Positions 8,994-17,682 of a stretch of DNA of 52,616 nt are shown here, piece by piece (the first letter of the stretch is position 1; each line of letters opens with the position of its first letter). The stretch lies in contig NZ_CAMCEC010000018.1 of NCBI RefSeq assembly GCF_945873775.1, positions 1-52,616 of the forward strand. Direction: 5' to 3'. The notes beneath the pieces were generated by a model. It searched no databases. It had not been told where the DNA came from and was given only the letters and a program-made list of their open reading frames with translations. The position numbers were made by a program, and so were the translations under genes. Source of the DNA: an uncultured Treponema sp. (GTDB taxonomy: Bacteria; Spirochaetota; Spirochaetia; Treponematales; Treponemataceae).

Positions 8994-10007
8994 CTAAAGT
9001 TTTTTTACCGAATTTCTTTCTATAAATTCAGCTGGAACACGGACACATTCGCCCACAGGAATTCCAACAAGACGGTTCATAAGAATTTCTGCGGAAAGCT
9101 CGCCAATCGTTTTTATATCCTGCCTGAACGTTGTCAAAGACGGAGAATAAAATTCAGAAATCATTTCATTATCAAAACCAATAAAAGAAATGTCTTCGGG
9201 AATTCTTTTTCCAATTGATTTTACATATTCCATTGCGCCAACCGCCATATTGTCGTTTGCAACAAAAACTGCGGTAATATCGCTGTGCCGCTCAAGAAGT
9301 TCTTTCATAGCATCATGGCTTTCCGCCCGCGACCATTTATGGCAAAATTTTACATAAGATTCATCATATTTCAATCCGAAATCTTCAAAGGCATTTTTCA
9401 ATCCTTCCAAGCGGTCAATTGCAGCCATATTATACTGCGAATAAGTTCCGCCGATATAGGCAATTTTTTTATGCCCGTTTTCAATAAAGTATGAAGCCGC
9501 TTTATATCCAGCCTCAACATTTGCTGTTACAACAGTTGGAACTCCAGGAATTATAAAGTTTGTTGAAACGCAAGGAATGTCGGATTTTACAAGCTCCATA
9601 ATTTCATTGTCCGCGCTGATTGGATTTATAATTCCAACCGCATCTACATTTCTGTGATAGCAATGCTCAACGTAAGATTTTTTTTCTCCAATTGGAGCAT
9701 GGGAAATAAAAAGCAAATCGTATCCGGCAAACTCAAAATCTTCCCTGAATTTATTCAGAATTTTTCCAAACAAAGGATGGTCGAAACCTCTTTGCATATC
9801 GGCATCTTCATAAATTATTCCTATTAGAAAGGATTTTTTTGTTGTAAGAGTGCGGGCTGTTATATTTGGACGGTAACTTAATTCTTTGGCTGCATCAAGA
9901 ATTTTTTTTCTAGTTGAATCGCTTAAGCCGCCAGTTTTATTAAGAGCCTTGGAAACTGTAGGGGCAGAATAACCTGTTTTTGAAGCAATATCATAAATTG
10001 TAACCAT
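8994..10007 (-). CDS. LacI family transcriptional regulator
   Basis: A sugar-responsive repressor. The N-terminal helix-turn-helix and hinge (MVTIYDIASKTGYSAPTVSK to about residue 57) are followed by a periplasmic-binding-protein-like effector domain (FLIGIIYED onward) of normal length (337 residues). GGAGG stands before the ATG in GGAGGCGGAAAATTCAATG. It is transcribed in the same direction as the GH43 and ABC genes and most likely controls them and the divergent GH94 gene. A LacI-type dyad is present at 15078-15091. Part of its ribosome-binding site is complementary to an upstream 11-mer (10114-10124). Confidence 0.93.
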   Translation of the reverse strand: MVTIYDIASKTGYSAPTVSKALNKTGGLSDSTRKKILDAAKELSYRPNITARTLTTKKSFLIGIIYEDADMQRGFDHPLFGKILNKFREDFEFAGYDLLFISHAPIGEKKSYVEHCYHRNVDAVGIINPISADNEIMELVKSDIPCVSTNFIIPGVPTVVTANVEAGYKAASYFIENGHKKIAYIGGTYSQYNMAAIDRLEGLKNAFEDFGLKYDESYVKFCHKWSRAESHDAMKELLERHSDITAVFVANDNMAVGAMEYVKSIGKRIPEDISFIGFDNEMISEFYSPSLTTFRQDIKTIGELSAEILMNRLVGIPVGECVRVPAEFIERNSVKKL

Positions 10008-10142: not shown

Positions 10143-11738
10143 CTAGTCAAGCTTCTTGTAGGAAAAATATTCAAAGTCCGCAAATTTCTTATAAGAAATC
10201 AAGTCAGCGCAATACATTCCAACAAATGCTCCTGTAAATCCTTGAGTTCCATATTCATCAGAAAGTTTGCTTGCATCTATAAGCGGACGAATCTGCCTGA
10301 AATTTTTTCCATCCTGCGACCAATAGAAAAATCCAGTTTTCTTGTGAACTTCAAGTCTTATCCAAACAGGTTTTTCTTCGTCAAGCGGACATTCCATTTC
10401 ACGTATAAATCCTTCCGGCATAATGGACATAACCTGAATGACTTTTCCTTTTTGCTCATCCCGCGTTACAACACAAAGATACTGGGACTTTTCATCATAA
10501 CGGTAAATCATTCCTGCAAAATGCTGAAAACTTTCCGGAGTGAATTCCATTTTAGTTTCAGCAATAAAATCAAAATCAGTCTGACGGCGCGCTAAAAGGC
10601 TCTGCTCAAAACAAGAACTAGGAGATTGACCTCCGTGAATTCTTAAAAATCCCGGATGTTCTGAAATTGAAAACCGTTTATCATCAAAAGGAATTCTTAA
10701 AGTTTTAAATTCCGCTAGAAAATCCTTGTTTTTAAATTCATATTTTTCTGCAACATGGGCAACTCCGCATCCTGGAGCAATAATTCCGCGGCCTTTTACT
10801 TCTATATAATCAGGCGGACAATTCTTTAAAGTTCCGTCAGACTGCTTTACCCAAGGCCAGCCATCTTTCCACTCAAGTTCAGCAATTCCAGTTTCACGTC
10901 CAAGAACGCAGCGTTCAGTTCCTTCAAGAGGTCGTCCGCAAAGATAAACAAGATAATCTTTTTTTCCGTCTGGAGACTTGCACCAAGAGCCATGCCCAGC
11001 TCTTTTTATTTTGCAGCCGTAGCCATAAGAAGTAATAAGCGGATTTGCAGGATGAACTTCATAAGGCCCGAATAAATTCTTTGACCTTGCGCAAGTTATT
11101 GCGTGCTCATAACTAGTTCCGCCTTCCGCACAAACAAGATAATACCATCCATCACGCTTATAAAGATGCGGACCTTCCACAAGACCAATGTCTGTTCCTA
11201 GAAAAATTTTATGAACTTTTCCAACAAGTTTTTTTGCCTTGCAGTCATATTCCTGAACAAGAATTCCAGAAAACTGCCGCGGACCTTGCTGCCTATAATC
11301 CCATTCCATGTTCACAAACCATTTTTTTCCGTCATCATCATGGAATAATGAAGCATCAAATCCAGAGGCATTCATAAAAACTGGATCTGACCACGGGCCT
11401 TCAATCGATTCAGCTGTAGTTAAAAAATTCGGGCAGTCTTTCCAAGGACTATCGTTCCAGCTTCTTACATTTGTAAAAACAAGATAAAAAATTCCATCCG
11501 AATATGAAAGGCACGGCGCCCAAATTCCACACGAAGCTTTGTTTCCCGCCATATCCAAAAGACGTTTTTCAGAAAGCGGAGAAGGCACAGATTTCCAGGT
11601 CTTCATGTCTTTAGAACGGTGCAGCTCAACTCCCGGAAACCATTCAAATGTAGAATTTGCAATAAAGCATTCGCCATCCGCATTTACAATTGAAGGATCT
11701 GCATGAAATCCGGAAAGAATAGGATTATAGATTTTCAT
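10143..11738 (-). CDS. Glycoside hydrolase family 43 (beta-xylosidase / arabinofuranosidase type)
   Basis: An inverting exo-glycosidase of the five-bladed beta-propeller GH43 family. D14 in HADPSI matches the catalytic base. The FDASLFHDDDG segment (about residue 130) carries the pKa-modulating aspartate, and E in LVEGPHLYKRDGWYYL (about residue 185) is the likely general acid. Residues ~325-530 form a second beta-sandwich domain, as in xylosidases of about 530-540 residues. There is no signal peptide, so it acts in the cytoplasm on imported oligosaccharides. AGAGG precedes the ATG. It is the last gene of the ABC transporter operon. Xylo- versus arabino-specificity cannot be told from motifs alone. 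Confidence 0.9.
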   Translation of the reverse strand: MKIYNPILSGFHADPSIVNADGECFIANSTFEWFPGVELHRSKDMKTWKSVPSPLSEKRLLDMAGNKASCGIWAPCLSYSDGIFYLVFTNVRSWNDSPWKDCPNFLTTAESIEGPWSDPVFMNASGFDASLFHDDDGKKWFVNMEWDYRQQGPRQFSGILVQEYDCKAKKLVGKVHKIFLGTDIGLVEGPHLYKRDGWYYLVCAEGGTSYEHAITCARSKNLFGPYEVHPANPLITSYGYGCKIKRAGHGSWCKSPDGKKDYLVYLCGRPLEGTERCVLGRETGIAELEWKDGWPWVKQSDGTLKNCPPDYIEVKGRGIIAPGCGVAHVAEKYEFKNKDFLAEFKTLRIPFDDKRFSISEHPGFLRIHGGQSPSSCFEQSLLARRQTDFDFIAETKMEFTPESFQHFAGMIYRYDEKSQYLCVVTRDEQKGKVIQVMSIMPEGFIREMECPLDEEKPVWIRLEVHKKTGFFYWSQDGKNFRQIRPLIDASKLSDEYGTQGFTGAFVGMYCADLISYKKFADFEYFSYKKLD

Positions 11739-11762: not shown

Positions 11763-12602
11763 TTACTCTTTTACGCTTCCCATTGTAATTCCAGAAATAA
11801 TATACCTTGACATAAACGCATAGAACACAAGAATTGGAATTAATGAAACCGCAACTCCAAGATAAATTGAACCGTATTCTGTGCGGTAAATATCGCCTCG
11901 CAAAGACTGAACGAGCATCGGCAAAGTATATTTATCCTGATCAGAAAGAAGAACAAACGGCGTCATAAAATTGTTCCAAGATGCAACAAAAGAAAAGATG
12001 CTCTGCGCCGCAATTGCCGGTGTCAAAATCGGAAGCATTATTGTGTTGAAAATTCTAAATTCACCAGCTCCGTCAATTCTTCCAGCATCAATAAGCTCAA
12101 ATGAAAGAATTGATTCCATATATTGACGCAAAAACAAAACAGTTCCAGCAGAAGCAATCGAAGGAATAATCAGCGGAATAAAGCTGTTTGTAAGATGAAT
12201 TTTCGCCATAAACTGATAGAATCCAATAAACGAAAGAGTTCCAGGAATCATAATCACAACAAGAATAAATCCCCAGAGCAAATTTCTTCCTTTAAATTTA
12301 TAAACTTGAATTCCATAAGCTGTCAATGTAGAAAAATAAACGCCAAGCACAGTTGAAAAAATCGCAATAACCGCACTGTTTCCAAATCCACGCCAGATTT
12401 TAAAGGAACGGCTTGTAAGGTTTTTCCAGTTCTGCAAAGTATTAGTTCCCGGCAAAAGAGAAATTCCAGAGTTAATCTGCGCATTTGTTCTTGTTGCGTT
12501 TATAAGCATAAGATAAATTGGAATAACTGCAAGCAACGCAAAGAAAATCATCAGCACATATAAAATAGTTCTTTTTAATGAAAGTTCAGATTTATATTTC
12601 AT
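11763..12602 (-). CDS. Carbohydrate ABC transporter permease, MalG type
   Basis: One of two inner-membrane subunits of a CUT1-type sugar importer. Six hydrophobic helices are visible, with the ATPase-contacting EAA-like loop seen as IDAGRIDGAGEFRIF...LPILTPA (about residues 180-205). At 279 residues it has the usual length. AAGGAG stands before the ATG. It is downstream of the MalF-type permease by 15 bases and followed 24 bases later by the GH43 gene. No ATPase gene is present in the locus, so the pair must share an ATPase encoded elsewhere, as MsmK/MsmX does in other bacteria. Confidence 0.92.
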   Translation of the reverse strand: MKYKSELSLKRTILYVLMIFFALLAVIPIYLMLINATRTNAQINSGISLLPGTNTLQNWKNLTSRSFKIWRGFGNSAVIAIFSTVLGVYFSTLTAYGIQVYKFKGRNLLWGFILVVIMIPGTLSFIGFYQFMAKIHLTNSFIPLIIPSIASAGTVLFLRQYMESILSFELIDAGRIDGAGEFRIFNTIMLPILTPAIAAQSIFSFVASWNNFMTPFVLLSDQDKYTLPMLVQSLRGDIYRTEYGSIYLGVAVSLIPILVFYAFMSRYIISGITMGSVKE

Positions 12603-12617
12603 ACCAAGCTCCTTATA

Positions 12618-13577
12618 TTAGTCTTCCTTGCGGGATTTTACAGGACGCTCCTTTACAAGAGCATTTATTCCAATGGATAAAATAATTGTGATAATAAATA
12701 TAGCAATCGCAATTGCAGCGGCATAAGAATAATCTGTTCCGCCTTGGAATCCCATATTGTAAAGATAAACCGACATTGTTCTAATTTTAAAGTCAGGCTC
12801 ACCATGCATTCCAGTAAGAAGGAAAGGAATTTCAAAAAGCTGCATTCCGCCAATCATCGAAGTAACAAGAATATAAAGCATCATCGGGCGCAAAAGCGGC
12901 AATGTTATATAGAAAGTCTGCTGACGGTTATTCGCTCCGTCAACAATCGCAGCCTCGTACAAGGAAGGAGAAATGCTTGTTATTCCAGCCATGAGCATAA
13001 TCAAAGTATGGCCGCACCACATCCACCACTGAATAAAAGAAACAATCAAGCGCGAAGCATTTGGCATTCTAAAGAAATTGAATCCTTGCTTTACAACTTC
13101 ACCATCAACAACTCCAGTAGACCAAATTCCCAAAGTTCCTGTCAAAAACTGATTCACAGGTCCGACTGGATAAGCAAAAAGGCTTCTAAAAAGAATCGCA
13201 ATAGATGCGGTTGTCAAAAGATTCGGCATATAAAAAACCGCGCGGAACAATCCTTTTCCCTTTAAATTCAGCCTTACATCAGTGAACCAAATTGCAAAAA
13301 GCAAAGCGATTCCAAGCTGAGGGATAAAGTTGCAACCCCACATTATAAACGTATTTTTTACTGAACCCCAGAAATATTTATCATTTATAAGCTTCTGAAA
13401 ATTTTTCAGCCCAACAAAACTAAAGTCAGAGCGAAGACCTTTTAAATCACTGAATCCTAAAATCAATGTATACAAAATCGGCCACAACTGAAAAGCCGCA
13501 TAAACCAGTATAAAAGGCAAAACAAAAAAGTATCCGCTTCTATTTGTCTTGGTTTCTATTCCGGATTTTTTCTTCAT
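12618..13577 (-). CDS. Carbohydrate ABC transporter permease, MalF/UgpA type
   Basis: Partner of the MalG-type permease in a CUT1 sugar importer. About six TM helices span the 319 residues. The EAA loop is EAAIVDGANNRQQTFYITLP (about residue 212), the site that contacts the ATPase. GGAGG lies before the ATG. The order solute-binding protein, MalF-type, MalG-type, GH43 on one strand fits an oligosaccharide uptake operon. Confidence 0.93.
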   Translation of the reverse strand: MKKKSGIETKTNRSGYFFVLPFILVYAAFQLWPILYTLILGFSDLKGLRSDFSFVGLKNFQKLINDKYFWGSVKNTFIMWGCNFIPQLGIALLFAIWFTDVRLNLKGKGLFRAVFYMPNLLTTASIAILFRSLFAYPVGPVNQFLTGTLGIWSTGVVDGEVVKQGFNFFRMPNASRLIVSFIQWWMWCGHTLIMLMAGITSISPSLYEAAIVDGANNRQQTFYITLPLLRPMMLYILVTSMIGGMQLFEIPFLLTGMHGEPDFKIRTMSVYLYNMGFQGGTDYSYAAAIAIAIFIITIILSIGINALVKERPVKSRKED

Positions 13578-13667: not shown

Positions 13668-14972
13668 TTACAAAGAAAGTGAAAGTGTTGAAGAAACCTG
13701 AGCCTTGAAGTCATCAAGAGCCTGCTGCTTTGTTTTTTCTCCGTTTACATAAGCCGCAGTTTCCTCTGCAAAAATAGACTCAATTGCCTGATCTGTTCCC
13801 TGTGAAAGCTTTCCGTTTACAGATTCAGCCATCTGCGCAAAAGCAGAGTAATGATTTTGTCCTGCAAGGTAAGGGTCTGCATAGCTGTCTTTGATTTTTT
13901 CAACAACATTTTTGTTTGAAACAACATCACCTGTATCTTTTGCCCAAGCCTCAAGGAAAGCGTCATCTGTTGCAATGTATTTTATAAGTTCTTTTGCGGC
14001 ATTAGGATTTTTTGTTCCTTTCCATGCGCCAACCCAAGTTCCGCCCCAGCGATAGCCTACAGGACCTGCGCACATTGCCCAGTCTCCAGCAGATTCAGGA
14101 GCATTTGTCTTAAGAACATAATGAAGTCCCCAAGTTGGAAGGAAATAGCTGAATACTTCTTTATTCTTTCCAGCTTCGTCTTTAAAAGTTCCTTTCATTC
14201 CTGCAAACCAGCCTTCCGACCATTGATTTACACGGCCTTCATAGCCTTTATCATGCAAAGTTTTGCACATATCCATGTAGTCGTACATTTTCTGGTCAAT
14301 AACAAGCTTGTCATCAACAACCCAAGGAGATGCGCGGCCTGCGCTGTAAGGCTTAAACATATCGCCAGTTGAAGAAACAACATAGCAGTCGCCATTTGAT
14401 TTCTGCTTTAAAAGTTCTGCAGTTTCAAGGAATTTGTCCCAGTTAGCAAGATGTTTCTGAACTTCGGCTGGATCATCTGTTCCAAGATATTTTTTTGCAA
14501 GCGAGCGGCGGTAGAAAACTGCGCCCGGAGTAACTTGCCACGACATTCCGTAAACTTTTCCGTTGTAAGTTCCAACTTCTACAGGATAAGGATAAACTTT
14601 GTCTTTTACTTCGTTGTAAATGTCTGTAATGTCAAGCAAAAGACCTGATTCAATGTATTTGCGCACAAAAGCATCTTCAAGAGCAAAAACATCAGGGCAG
14701 CCGGAACCAGATGCCAAAACAGGGTCAAGTTTATTCGGAAACTGATCTGTCGGTGTAAGTGAATATGAAATTTCATATTTTCCTGCAAAGCGCGAATCTT
14801 TCTGGAAATAATTTTTTATCATTCCGTCCAGCTCGTCCGTAAAAGACCAGACTACAAGCTTATTGTTTGCATCTGACTTTCCCTGAGGCGCTTTATCTTT
14901 AGAGCACCCCCCCCCGATAAAAGCAAAAGCTCCGATCATTGCCGCAGAAATAACTGCAAAAGTTCTCTTCAT
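13668..14972 (-). CDS. Sugar ABC transporter solute-binding lipoprotein with a G9 lipobox
   Basis: The extracytoplasmic binding protein that delivers an oligosaccharide to the two permeases. ATG 14972 is chosen because GGAGG precedes it; an ATG 12 bases upstream overlaps that site. The signal peptide ends in FAFIGGGC, with C23 as the lipidated residue. Three consecutive GGG codons (residues 20-22) form an unbroken run of nine G, directly before the cysteine. One slipped base would shift the frame and abolish the protein, so this is a candidate phase-variable gene. The rest matches extracellular solute-binding family 1 at 434 residues. The dyads at 15061-15091 lie about 90-120 bases upstream. 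Confidence 0.93.
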   Translation of the reverse strand: MKRTFAVISAAMIGAFAFIGGGCSKDKAPQGKSDANNKLVVWSFTDELDGMIKNYFQKDSRFAGKYEISYSLTPTDQFPNKLDPVLASGSGCPDVFALEDAFVRKYIESGLLLDITDIYNEVKDKVYPYPVEVGTYNGKVYGMSWQVTPGAVFYRRSLAKKYLGTDDPAEVQKHLANWDKFLETAELLKQKSNGDCYVVSSTGDMFKPYSAGRASPWVVDDKLVIDQKMYDYMDMCKTLHDKGYEGRVNQWSEGWFAGMKGTFKDEAGKNKEVFSYFLPTWGLHYVLKTNAPESAGDWAMCAGPVGYRWGGTWVGAWKGTKNPNAAKELIKYIATDDAFLEAWAKDTGDVVSNKNVVEKIKDSYADPYLAGQNHYSAFAQMAESVNGKLSQGTDQAIESIFAEETAAYVNGEKTKQQALDDFKAQVSSTLSLSL

Positions 14973-15255: not shown

Positions 15256-17682
15256 ATGCAATACGGATATTTTGACGATGAAGCCAAAGAATACGTTGTT
15301 ACACGTCCAGACACACCGACTTCCTGGAGTAACTATCTTGGCTCAACTGAATATGGAGCTGTCATAACAAACAATGCCGGTGGCTACGGATTCTACAAGT
15401 CTGGAGCGCAGGGAAGATTTATGCGCCTTAGATTCAATTCAATTCCAACGGATCAGCCTGGCCGCTATTTTTACTTGCGCGACATGGAATCCGGAGACTA
15501 CTGGTCAGCTTCATGGCAGCCTGTAGGAAAACCTTTGGACAAATTTAAAAGCGAATGTCGCCACGGAACCGCATACACAAAAATCACTTCTGAATACGAA
15601 GGAATCAAGTCTGAAACGAAATACTATGTTCCGCTCGGACAAACATTTGAATACTGGCGTTTAAAAGTTACAAACACCGGCAGCAAAAAACGCAAGCTCC
15701 GCGCATTCAGCTACTGCGAATTTTCAAATCAGTGGAACACGACGCAAGACCAAGTAAATTTGCAGTATTCAATTTTCATTGTTAAGGGTGAAAAATCCGC
15801 GCCAAATATGCTGCGTTATTCAATACACGAAAATCTTTATATTCAGCATCAGAAAAATCCAGCGGTCAACGACTACATGAGCGAATGGATGGCTCTTGCC
15901 GGCGCGCCAATGACAGGATTCGACATAAGCCGTGAAGCATTTATCGGAACTTACGGAAGCTACAAAGAGCCAGCGGCAGTTTTAAAAGGCGAATGTTCAA
16001 ATTCAGAAGCGTTCGGAGACAATTCTTGCGGAACAGTTCAGGCTGACCTTGAATTGAATCCGGGAGAAACAAAAGAAATCATGGTTCTCCTTGGAATCGG
16101 AGACGCAAATGTTGAAGGCAAGAAAACTGTAGAAGAATTTGGAACATTTGAACGCGCAGATAAAGAATTTAAAAAGCTTGTAAAAAACTGGCATTCAAAG
16201 CTAGACAGTTTTTCAACAGTTACGCCAGACGAAGACATAAACCACACAGTGAATATGTGGGGACTTTACAACTGCCTTATAACATTCGCCTGGTCAAGAG
16301 CAGCATCTTTGGTTTACAACGGAGAACGCGACGGACTTGGCTACAGAGATTCAGTTCAGGATATTCTTGGAGTAAGCGCGGCAATTCCACAGGAAGCAGA
16401 AGAACGTCTTGTTCGGCTTTTAAGCGGACAGTTCTCAAACGGAGGAGCATTACCTGTAATCAGCAAGGATTTTGAAGCCGGAAAACAAAAAATGATTCCA
16501 GCAGAGGAATTCCGCTCAGACGATTGCCAGTGGTTCTTTAACGCAGTGCCTTGTTTTGTCGCAGAAACTGGAAACTTTGATTTCTTTAACCGCGTAGTTC
16601 CTTATGCAGACAAAGGCGAAGCCACAGTTTACGGACATTTAAAGCAGGCTCTTTTGTTCAACCTTGAGCGCATGGGAAAAGACGGACTTCCATGCGGACT
16701 TCTTGCCGACTGGAACGACTGCCTTAAGCTTGGCTACCATGGAGAAAGCCTTTTTGTTGCATTCCAGCTTAGACTCGGACTTACAACTTATACCGATATT
16801 TCAAAACGCCTCGGAAAAAATGACGAAGCTGAATGGGCTTTGAGCGAGCGCAAAAAGCTCGATGAAAACATCCAGAAAAAATGCTGGGATGGAAAATGGT
16901 TTATCTGGGCAATCGCAGAAGACGGAACAGTTTACGGAACTCAGTCAATCGAAGAAGGACAGATTTACTTCAACACGCAAGTATGGTCAGTTCTTTCAGG
17001 AGCGGCAACTCCAGACCAAGTAAAAACCTGCCTTGAATCTGTAAAAGAAAAACTTGCAACACCTTATGGACTTATGCTTTGCGCGCCGCCATTTATCTAT
17101 GCAAGCCGCGACATAATGAGCTCAGTTGTATATCTTCCGGGAATCAAAGAAAACGCCGGAATTTTCAACCACACTCAAGGCTGGGGAGTTATCGCTGAAA
17201 TCATGAACGGAAACGGCGACAGAGCTTATGAATATTGCAAAGCCGCGCTTCCAGCCGCATACAACACAAAGGCAGAAATCCGCCAGAGCGAGCCTTATGT
17301 TATCGGTCAGACAACTTATTCTACATATTCAAAGCGTCCGGGCAACACAAGAGTTTCATGGCTTTCTGGAGCTGCAACTTGGAACTATTATTCAATCACG
17401 CAGTATATGCTTGGAATTCGCCCGCAGTACAACGGACTTTTGATTGATCCGTGCATTAAGCATGACTGGGACGGATTTAAAGTTGAACGTCGCTGGAGAA
17501 AAATGAATCTTCACATTGAAGTTAAAAATCCTTCGCACATTTCAAAAGGAATTGAATATATTGAAGTAGACGGAAAACGCATAAATTCTTCTACAATTCC
17601 AGCTGAAATTCTAAAAGACGGAAGCAAAATAATTGCCGTAATGGGCAAAAATGCGCTTTCTGTAGAAAACGAGCGTATGTAA
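15256..17682 (+). CDS. GH94 glycoside phosphorylase (cellobiose phosphorylase type)
   Basis: GH94 enzymes cleave beta-linked disaccharides with phosphate to give a sugar 1-phosphate, saving ATP. The 808 residues match the usual length. The N-terminus YGYFDDEAKEYVVTRPDTPT is typical of cellobiose-phosphorylase entries. The ADWND motif at residues 484-488 holds the acid aspartate of the (alpha/alpha)6 barrel. GGAG lies 7 bases before ATG 15256. No signal peptide, so it is cytoplasmic, consistent with ABC import of intact disaccharides. Divergent from the importer operon across a 283-base control region. Laminaribiose, chitobiose or other beta-disaccharides remain possible substrates. Confidence 0.9.
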   Translation: MQYGYFDDEAKEYVVTRPDTPTSWSNYLGSTEYGAVITNNAGGYGFYKSGAQGRFMRLRFNSIPTDQPGRYFYLRDMESGDYWSASWQPVGKPLDKFKSECRHGTAYTKITSEYEGIKSETKYYVPLGQTFEYWRLKVTNTGSKKRKLRAFSYCEFSNQWNTTQDQVNLQYSIFIVKGEKSAPNMLRYSIHENLYIQHQKNPAVNDYMSEWMALAGAPMTGFDISREAFIGTYGSYKEPAAVLKGECSNSEAFGDNSCGTVQADLELNPGETKEIMVLLGIGDANVEGKKTVEEFGTFERADKEFKKLVKNWHSKLDSFSTVTPDEDINHTVNMWGLYNCLITFAWSRAASLVYNGERDGLGYRDSVQDILGVSAAIPQEAEERLVRLLSGQFSNGGALPVISKDFEAGKQKMIPAEEFRSDDCQWFFNAVPCFVAETGNFDFFNRVVPYADKGEATVYGHLKQALLFNLERMGKDGLPCGLLADWNDCLKLGYHGESLFVAFQLRLGLTTYTDISKRLGKNDEAEWALSERKKLDENIQKKCWDGKWFIWAIAEDGTVYGTQSIEEGQIYFNTQVWSVLSGAATPDQVKTCLESVKEKLATPYGLMLCAPPFIYASRDIMSSVVYLPGIKENAGIFNHTQGWGVIAEIMNGNGDRAYEYCKAALPAAYNTKAEIRQSEPYVIGQTTYSTYSKRPGNTRVSWLSGAATWNYYSITQYMLGIRPQYNGLLIDPCIKHDWDGFKVERRWRKMNLHIEVKNPSHISKGIEYIEVDGKRINSSTIPAEILKDGSKIIAVMGKNALSVENERM

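Follow-up and report, generated by a model that had tools for sequence, protein, structure and literature searches.

A G9 tract at the lipobox of a Treponema sugar-binding lipoprotein as a candidate on/off switch of a glycan importer

Does a run of nine guanines at the lipobox of a sugar-binding lipoprotein allow a treponeme to switch an oligosaccharide importer on and off? The question is raised by a 52,616-nucleotide stretch of DNA from an uncultured Treponema sp., referred to here as the window. In an initial annotation, the run was taken to encode three glycines directly before the lipidated cysteine, and this placement is exact. Nine C residues on the plus strand at 14907–14915 form codons 20–22 (Gly-Gly-Gly) of a 434-aa reading frame on the minus strand (13668–14972), where the codons ATC GGG GGG GGG TGC specify Ile-Gly-Gly-Gly-Cys. 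The TGC (14904–14906) encodes the lipobox cysteine, which is the expected lipidation site judging from the signal-peptide pattern. Signal peptide and lipobox together (14904–14972, minus strand) translate as MKRTFAVISAAMIGAFAFIGGGC, the codons being ATG AAG AGA ACT TTT GCA GTT ATT TCT GCG GCA ATG ATC GGA GCT TTT GCT TTT ATC GGG GGG GGG TGC. The codon numbering assumes the ATG at 14972, with GGAGG just upstream of it, to be the start; this is the likely one because the first ATG (14984) overlaps that ribosome site. Counted from there, the tract begins at +58 of the gene.

The lipoprotein can be assigned to the CUT1-type ABC sugar-binding proteins by its SBP_bac fold (SBP_bac_8, PF13416, E 1.7e-20; SBP_bac_1, PF01547, E 5.5e-18), an adjacent permease pair and a lipoprotein signal read from the sequence. 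Its relatives in the PDB are sugar-binding proteins and include a Lin1841 protein (5ysb) as well as cellobiose- and xylo-oligosaccharide-binding ones. It is the first gene of a minus-strand operon that continues with two ABC sugar permeases (12618–13577, PF00528, E 3.2e-11; 11763–12602, PF00528, E 9.5e-13), a GH43 beta-xylosidase-like enzyme (10143–11738; PF04616, E 2.9e-93; PF17851, E 6.2e-57) and a LacI-family regulator (8994–10007; PF00356 and PF13377). A GH94 glycoside phosphorylase is encoded divergently (15256–17682, plus strand; PF17167, E 1.4e-122). This gene neighborhood points to a role of the operon in the import of plant-derived oligosaccharides.

The run had also been described as long for an AT-rich genome, and the counts agree with this. 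The GC content of the window is 38.5% and the lipobox tract is its sole G9, against a mean of 0.01 in 100 dinucleotide-preserving shuffles. Codon use fails to explain the run because GGG makes up only 4.4% of the glycine codons in the 39 window ORFs, a usage that gives a p of about 9e-5 for three consecutive GGG codons at a given Gly-Gly-Gly. The excess extends to the whole genome (2.59 Mb in 49 contigs, with the window being contig C18), in which 27 runs of G9 or longer were seen and 0.1–2 are expected by geometric extrapolation from short runs. Exact run lengths of 7, 8, 9, 10 and 11 occur 8, 33, 21, 4 and 2 times, as derived from the numbers of overlapping G7, G8 and G9 words (163, 95 and 35); all 60 runs of eight or more were recovered individually. 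Chance predicts a several-fold drop with each added length, so the peak at 8–9 reflects the genome itself. Given the shuffles, the rarity of GGG and the genome-wide excess, a chance origin of the G9 was ruled out: as in a contingency locus, the run is uninterrupted and longer than chance allows.

The second feature of such a locus, a change of frame upon gain or loss of one unit, was found in silico. With 6, 9 or 12 guanines the gene stays open (433–435 aa), whereas 8 guanines leave 39 aa and 10 leave 24 aa, so that the frameshift upon a one-base change foreseen by the initial annotation is borne out. A switch can be pictured from these lengths. Replication slippage would add or drop one G in the tract. 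At n=9 (also 6 and 12), signal peptide, lipobox and mature protein would be in frame and the gene ON, while at n=8 or 10 translation would stop after 39 or 24 codons, within or just beyond the signal peptide, and the gene would be OFF. An OFF cell would have an oligosaccharide importer without its binding protein, and polarity might also cost it the downstream permeases and the GH43 enzyme. A rate of length change in this tract high enough to be relevant, an effect of the missing binding protein on sugar uptake, and polarity of the OFF state on the operon are inferred. A role as a promoter spacer was also considered for the tract and rejected, since it lies inside coding sequence.

Poly-G-driven variable expression in Treponema pallidum, to which the tract had been likened, is already established and includes a tract in the 5' coding region of TP0969 (PMC7864442, PMC10013896). 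Among clones and stocks of the Nichols strain, length varies in 24 of the 46 poly-G/C tracts with at least 8 residues and in none of the poly-A/T tracts; in TP0969, 8 versus 9 G residues frameshift the N-terminus (PMC10013896), and the tract lies at +56 (PMC7864442). Like that of TP0969, the window tract is a poly-G of 8–9 that lies around codon 20 in the gene for an exported protein, and a one-base change truncates the product. The two differ in cargo: TP0969 is predicted to be an efflux protein of the outer membrane in a pathogen restricted to its host, whereas the window gene, a candidate switch, encodes the sugar-binding component of a glycan importer, a lipoprotein. Transcription of the T. 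pallidum tpr genes (tpr subfamily II), TP0126 and tprL is also set by poly-G length, in this case in the promoter (PMC7864442). The present genome has a promoter-spacer form of the tract as well, TTGACA-N-G8-10-TANAAT. The variable poly-G tracts of those T. pallidum promoters and of Neisseria porA affect transcription by way of promoter length or spacing (PMC7864442); the window tract is coding and would act through the reading frame.

Two further systems bear comparison. In Neisseria, hemoglobin uptake through hpuA and hmbR is phase-variable by way of poly-G tracts, which likewise switch the frame of a surface component for nutrient uptake, but the nutrient is iron and the phylum a different one. 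Bacteroidales invert promoters of surface and glycan-related loci by recombinase action; this is also phase variation of glycan functions in gut bacteria, but it proceeds by DNA inversion and not by the homopolymer slippage proposed here.

When the flanks of all 27 long runs in the genome were inspected, a promoter-spacer group and a group in 5' coding regions could be recognized among them. In the former, the tract separates a -35 TTGACA from a -10 TANAAT, as in TTGACAAATCCC-G9-TACAAT, and the genes downstream encode small lipoproteins in most cases, or an outer-membrane barrel. Among the matches listed, the spacer pattern occurs at 21 places in 10 of 59 genomes of the genus, and the reversed control gave none. 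Eight such sites in this genome (L017, L022, L024, L023, L026, L118, L119 and L114) have G8–9 between TTGACA and TANAAT or TACACT upstream of small lipoproteins, several with MRKFAKISAVLAAMVLA in common, or of the outer-membrane barrel. Their spacer lengths are 14–16, under the optimum of 17, and in the orthologue of L022 one G is replaced by C with the spacer length unchanged. In the coding group, five genes are OFF in this assembly, with long open frames past the tract: the related lipoproteins L012, L016 and L029, in which another frame is open for more than 400 codons beyond it, as well as L021 and L011. The family of three would span about 510–540 aa in frame and carries its G9 about 75 codons in. 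A glycosyltransferase (L020), an EcoRI homologue (L028) and an exported protein (L116) are in frame here.

A sister genome, MAG JAUNWH01 (S8M_St_45; G039, apparently the same assembly as G175), allowed these states to be compared between species. It is 96.6% identical over 7.3 kb at the window locus and about 94.7% identical over 45.7 kb of tract-bearing blocks. Three genes differ in frame state: the lipoproteins L021 and L011 are both G9 and OFF here but G8 and ON in the sister (as L087 and L158, respectively), while the exported protein L116 is G8 and ON here but G9 and OFF there (L166). All three tracts lie within or beside a signal peptide or close to a lipobox, and tracts of the same class as the one in the window thus occur in both states, as in contingency loci. 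L016 is G9 and OFF in both genomes. Of the five gene-gating tracts that can be compared, three have flipped frame, which is suggestive although the number is small. The window tract itself has nine guanines and is ON in each of the two genomes in which it occurs; since the second copy comes from a single assembly of the sister species and not from a read population, it is neither proof nor refutation of switching. Between the two copies of the lipoprotein gene, dS is 0.14 and dN/dS 0.06, a sign of purifying selection that fits an always-needed gene equally well. The aligned blocks contain 19 G tracts with at least 8 residues, of which 13 are the same length in the two genomes, 4 changed and 2 interrupted, while 2 of 23 A/T runs of this size changed; a faster rate for G tracts between the sisters is statistically unsupported by these counts (4/19 vs 2/23, Fisher p 0.38), which come from a set biased by including only sister tracts of 8 or more.

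The placement of tracts at signal peptides recurs across the genus. A frame-blind search of 59 genomes for ATGAA followed 25–55 bases later by G8 was extended in 200 genomes to tracts followed by TGY, and the loci were inspected. This gave 41 genes with a cysteine no more than 35 residues from the tract, of which eight were dropped as non-lipoproteins by judgement. Of the remaining lipoproteins (about 33), all with the tract in or beside the signal peptide, 18 are ON and 15 OFF. The OFF genes are one base out of frame and retain a long intact coding sequence past the tract, so that the mixture fits phase variation, unlike decaying pseudogenes. A G9-encoded [ILMV]-Gly-Gly-Gly at the lipobox recurs in unrelated lipoproteins, and in L254 and L264 the G9 lies immediately 5' of the cysteine codon. 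Pfam matches of tract lipoproteins include Ig-like domains, InlB/Listeria-Bacteroides repeats, FGE-sulfatase-like domains and beta-helix. A scan of 20 other tract-gated lipoproteins turned up no solute-binding protein, and a lipobox tract in a gene of this kind was seen solely in the window and in the sister copy. The use of such a tract in a sugar transporter, which had been flagged as new, therefore does look unusual. Two MglB-type sugar-binding proteins (PF13407; L252 in G109 and L267 in G212) have an internal G9 near codon 60 that keeps the frame in each of the two species, so flipping is not a necessary consequence of a G9 in a sugar-binding gene.

Taken together, on/off switching of the glycan importer is the best-supported reading of the G9, and we lean toward the view that it is a slippage-prone contingency tract able to switch translation of the glycan-binding lipoprotein. 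The part of the proposed switching that stood comprises a tract beyond chance length at the lipobox, closure of the frame by one base, and apparent poly-G switches elsewhere in the genome and genus; against it stands the window tract's own length, G9 in both copies. That constancy is what would be seen if the tract were an incidental, recent expansion within a glycine-rich lipobox of a constitutive gene, kept in frame by selection, with OFF variants being merely harmful mutants. We consider this a serious contender, although on balance it is probably not the explanation. Its origin would be slippage in a lineage prone to the growth of G runs, and the low dN/dS accords with it. So does the history of the site: none of about 25 other orthologues inspected (49–87% identity) has the tract, which therefore arose recently in the lineage of these two species, and their lipoboxes are ordinary (AFVGC, TSC, TGC and others). 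The shorter glycine lipoboxes of relatives (AFVGC in L075, ALVGC in L081) indicate that a net gain of about two glycine codons gave the tract. A fixed or tolerated, always-ON window tract is possible. An incidental expansion does not readily account for a stretch of three consecutive rare GGG codons with no synonymous interruption, and the genome is otherwise full of gene-gating tracts.

Steps of three bases could also act without any switching, n=6, 9 and 12 tuning the quality of the lipobox or signal cleavage. From the sequence, position -3 would be Ile at n=6, as in a classical lipobox, and is Gly at n=9, and Gly-Gly-Gly-Cys is found in other lipoproteins of the genus. Slippage, however, is mostly by one base, so loss of frame would dominate, and spirochaetal lipoboxes accept varied -3 residues; tuning is accordingly improbable. 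Long G runs are error-prone in sequencing, but an artefact of sequencing or assembly is less probable still, in that two separate metagenome assemblies agree on G9 and the observed length is the one that keeps the frame.

If the G9 is indeed a switch, the glycans imported would vary randomly from cell to cell within a single Treponema clone of the gut or rumen, which would amount to bet-hedging in nutrition rather than in antigen display. We tentatively suggest, while regarding it as somewhat short of an even chance, that the genus runs a broad, stochastic repertoire of surface lipoproteins through poly-G tracts in signal peptides and lipoboxes, and that this has been extended to a glycan importer, with cells differing in oligosaccharide uptake. 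More interesting than the single tract is the wider pattern, in which poly-G switches recur in signal peptides throughout this genus of Treponema. It would take such switching from single genes of the syphilis spirochaete to a device used again and again in a large genus of treponemes that are mostly uncultured. In the open-licence literature, we found nothing specific on switching by poly-G or other homopolymers in the signal peptides of lipoproteins or in treponemes of the gut, and no description of either the extension to a glycan importer or the recurrent placement in lipoprotein signal peptides across this genus.

Poly-G tracts are unevenly distributed and reach other kinds of genes. Individual genomes of the genus have between 0 and 35 G9 words, and some in the order's other families have far more, so that lineages seem to have acquired and lost the use of such tracts. 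Surface-sugar genes with a poly-G run at the 5' end or close to it include L020 (G10), L015 (a WecA/MraY-type GT4 gene) and L190, a gene of another species that resembles L015 and has its tract out of frame. The L015 tract, upstream of the glycosyltransferase, is G11 here and G10 in the sister. The EcoRI restriction endonuclease homologue (L028:755–1615, minus strand; PF02963, E 5.6e-132) carries its G9 (C23:12025–12033) near codon 20, in frame, and adjoins an N6/N4 DNA methylase and an AAA ATPase; it is possibly phase-variable.
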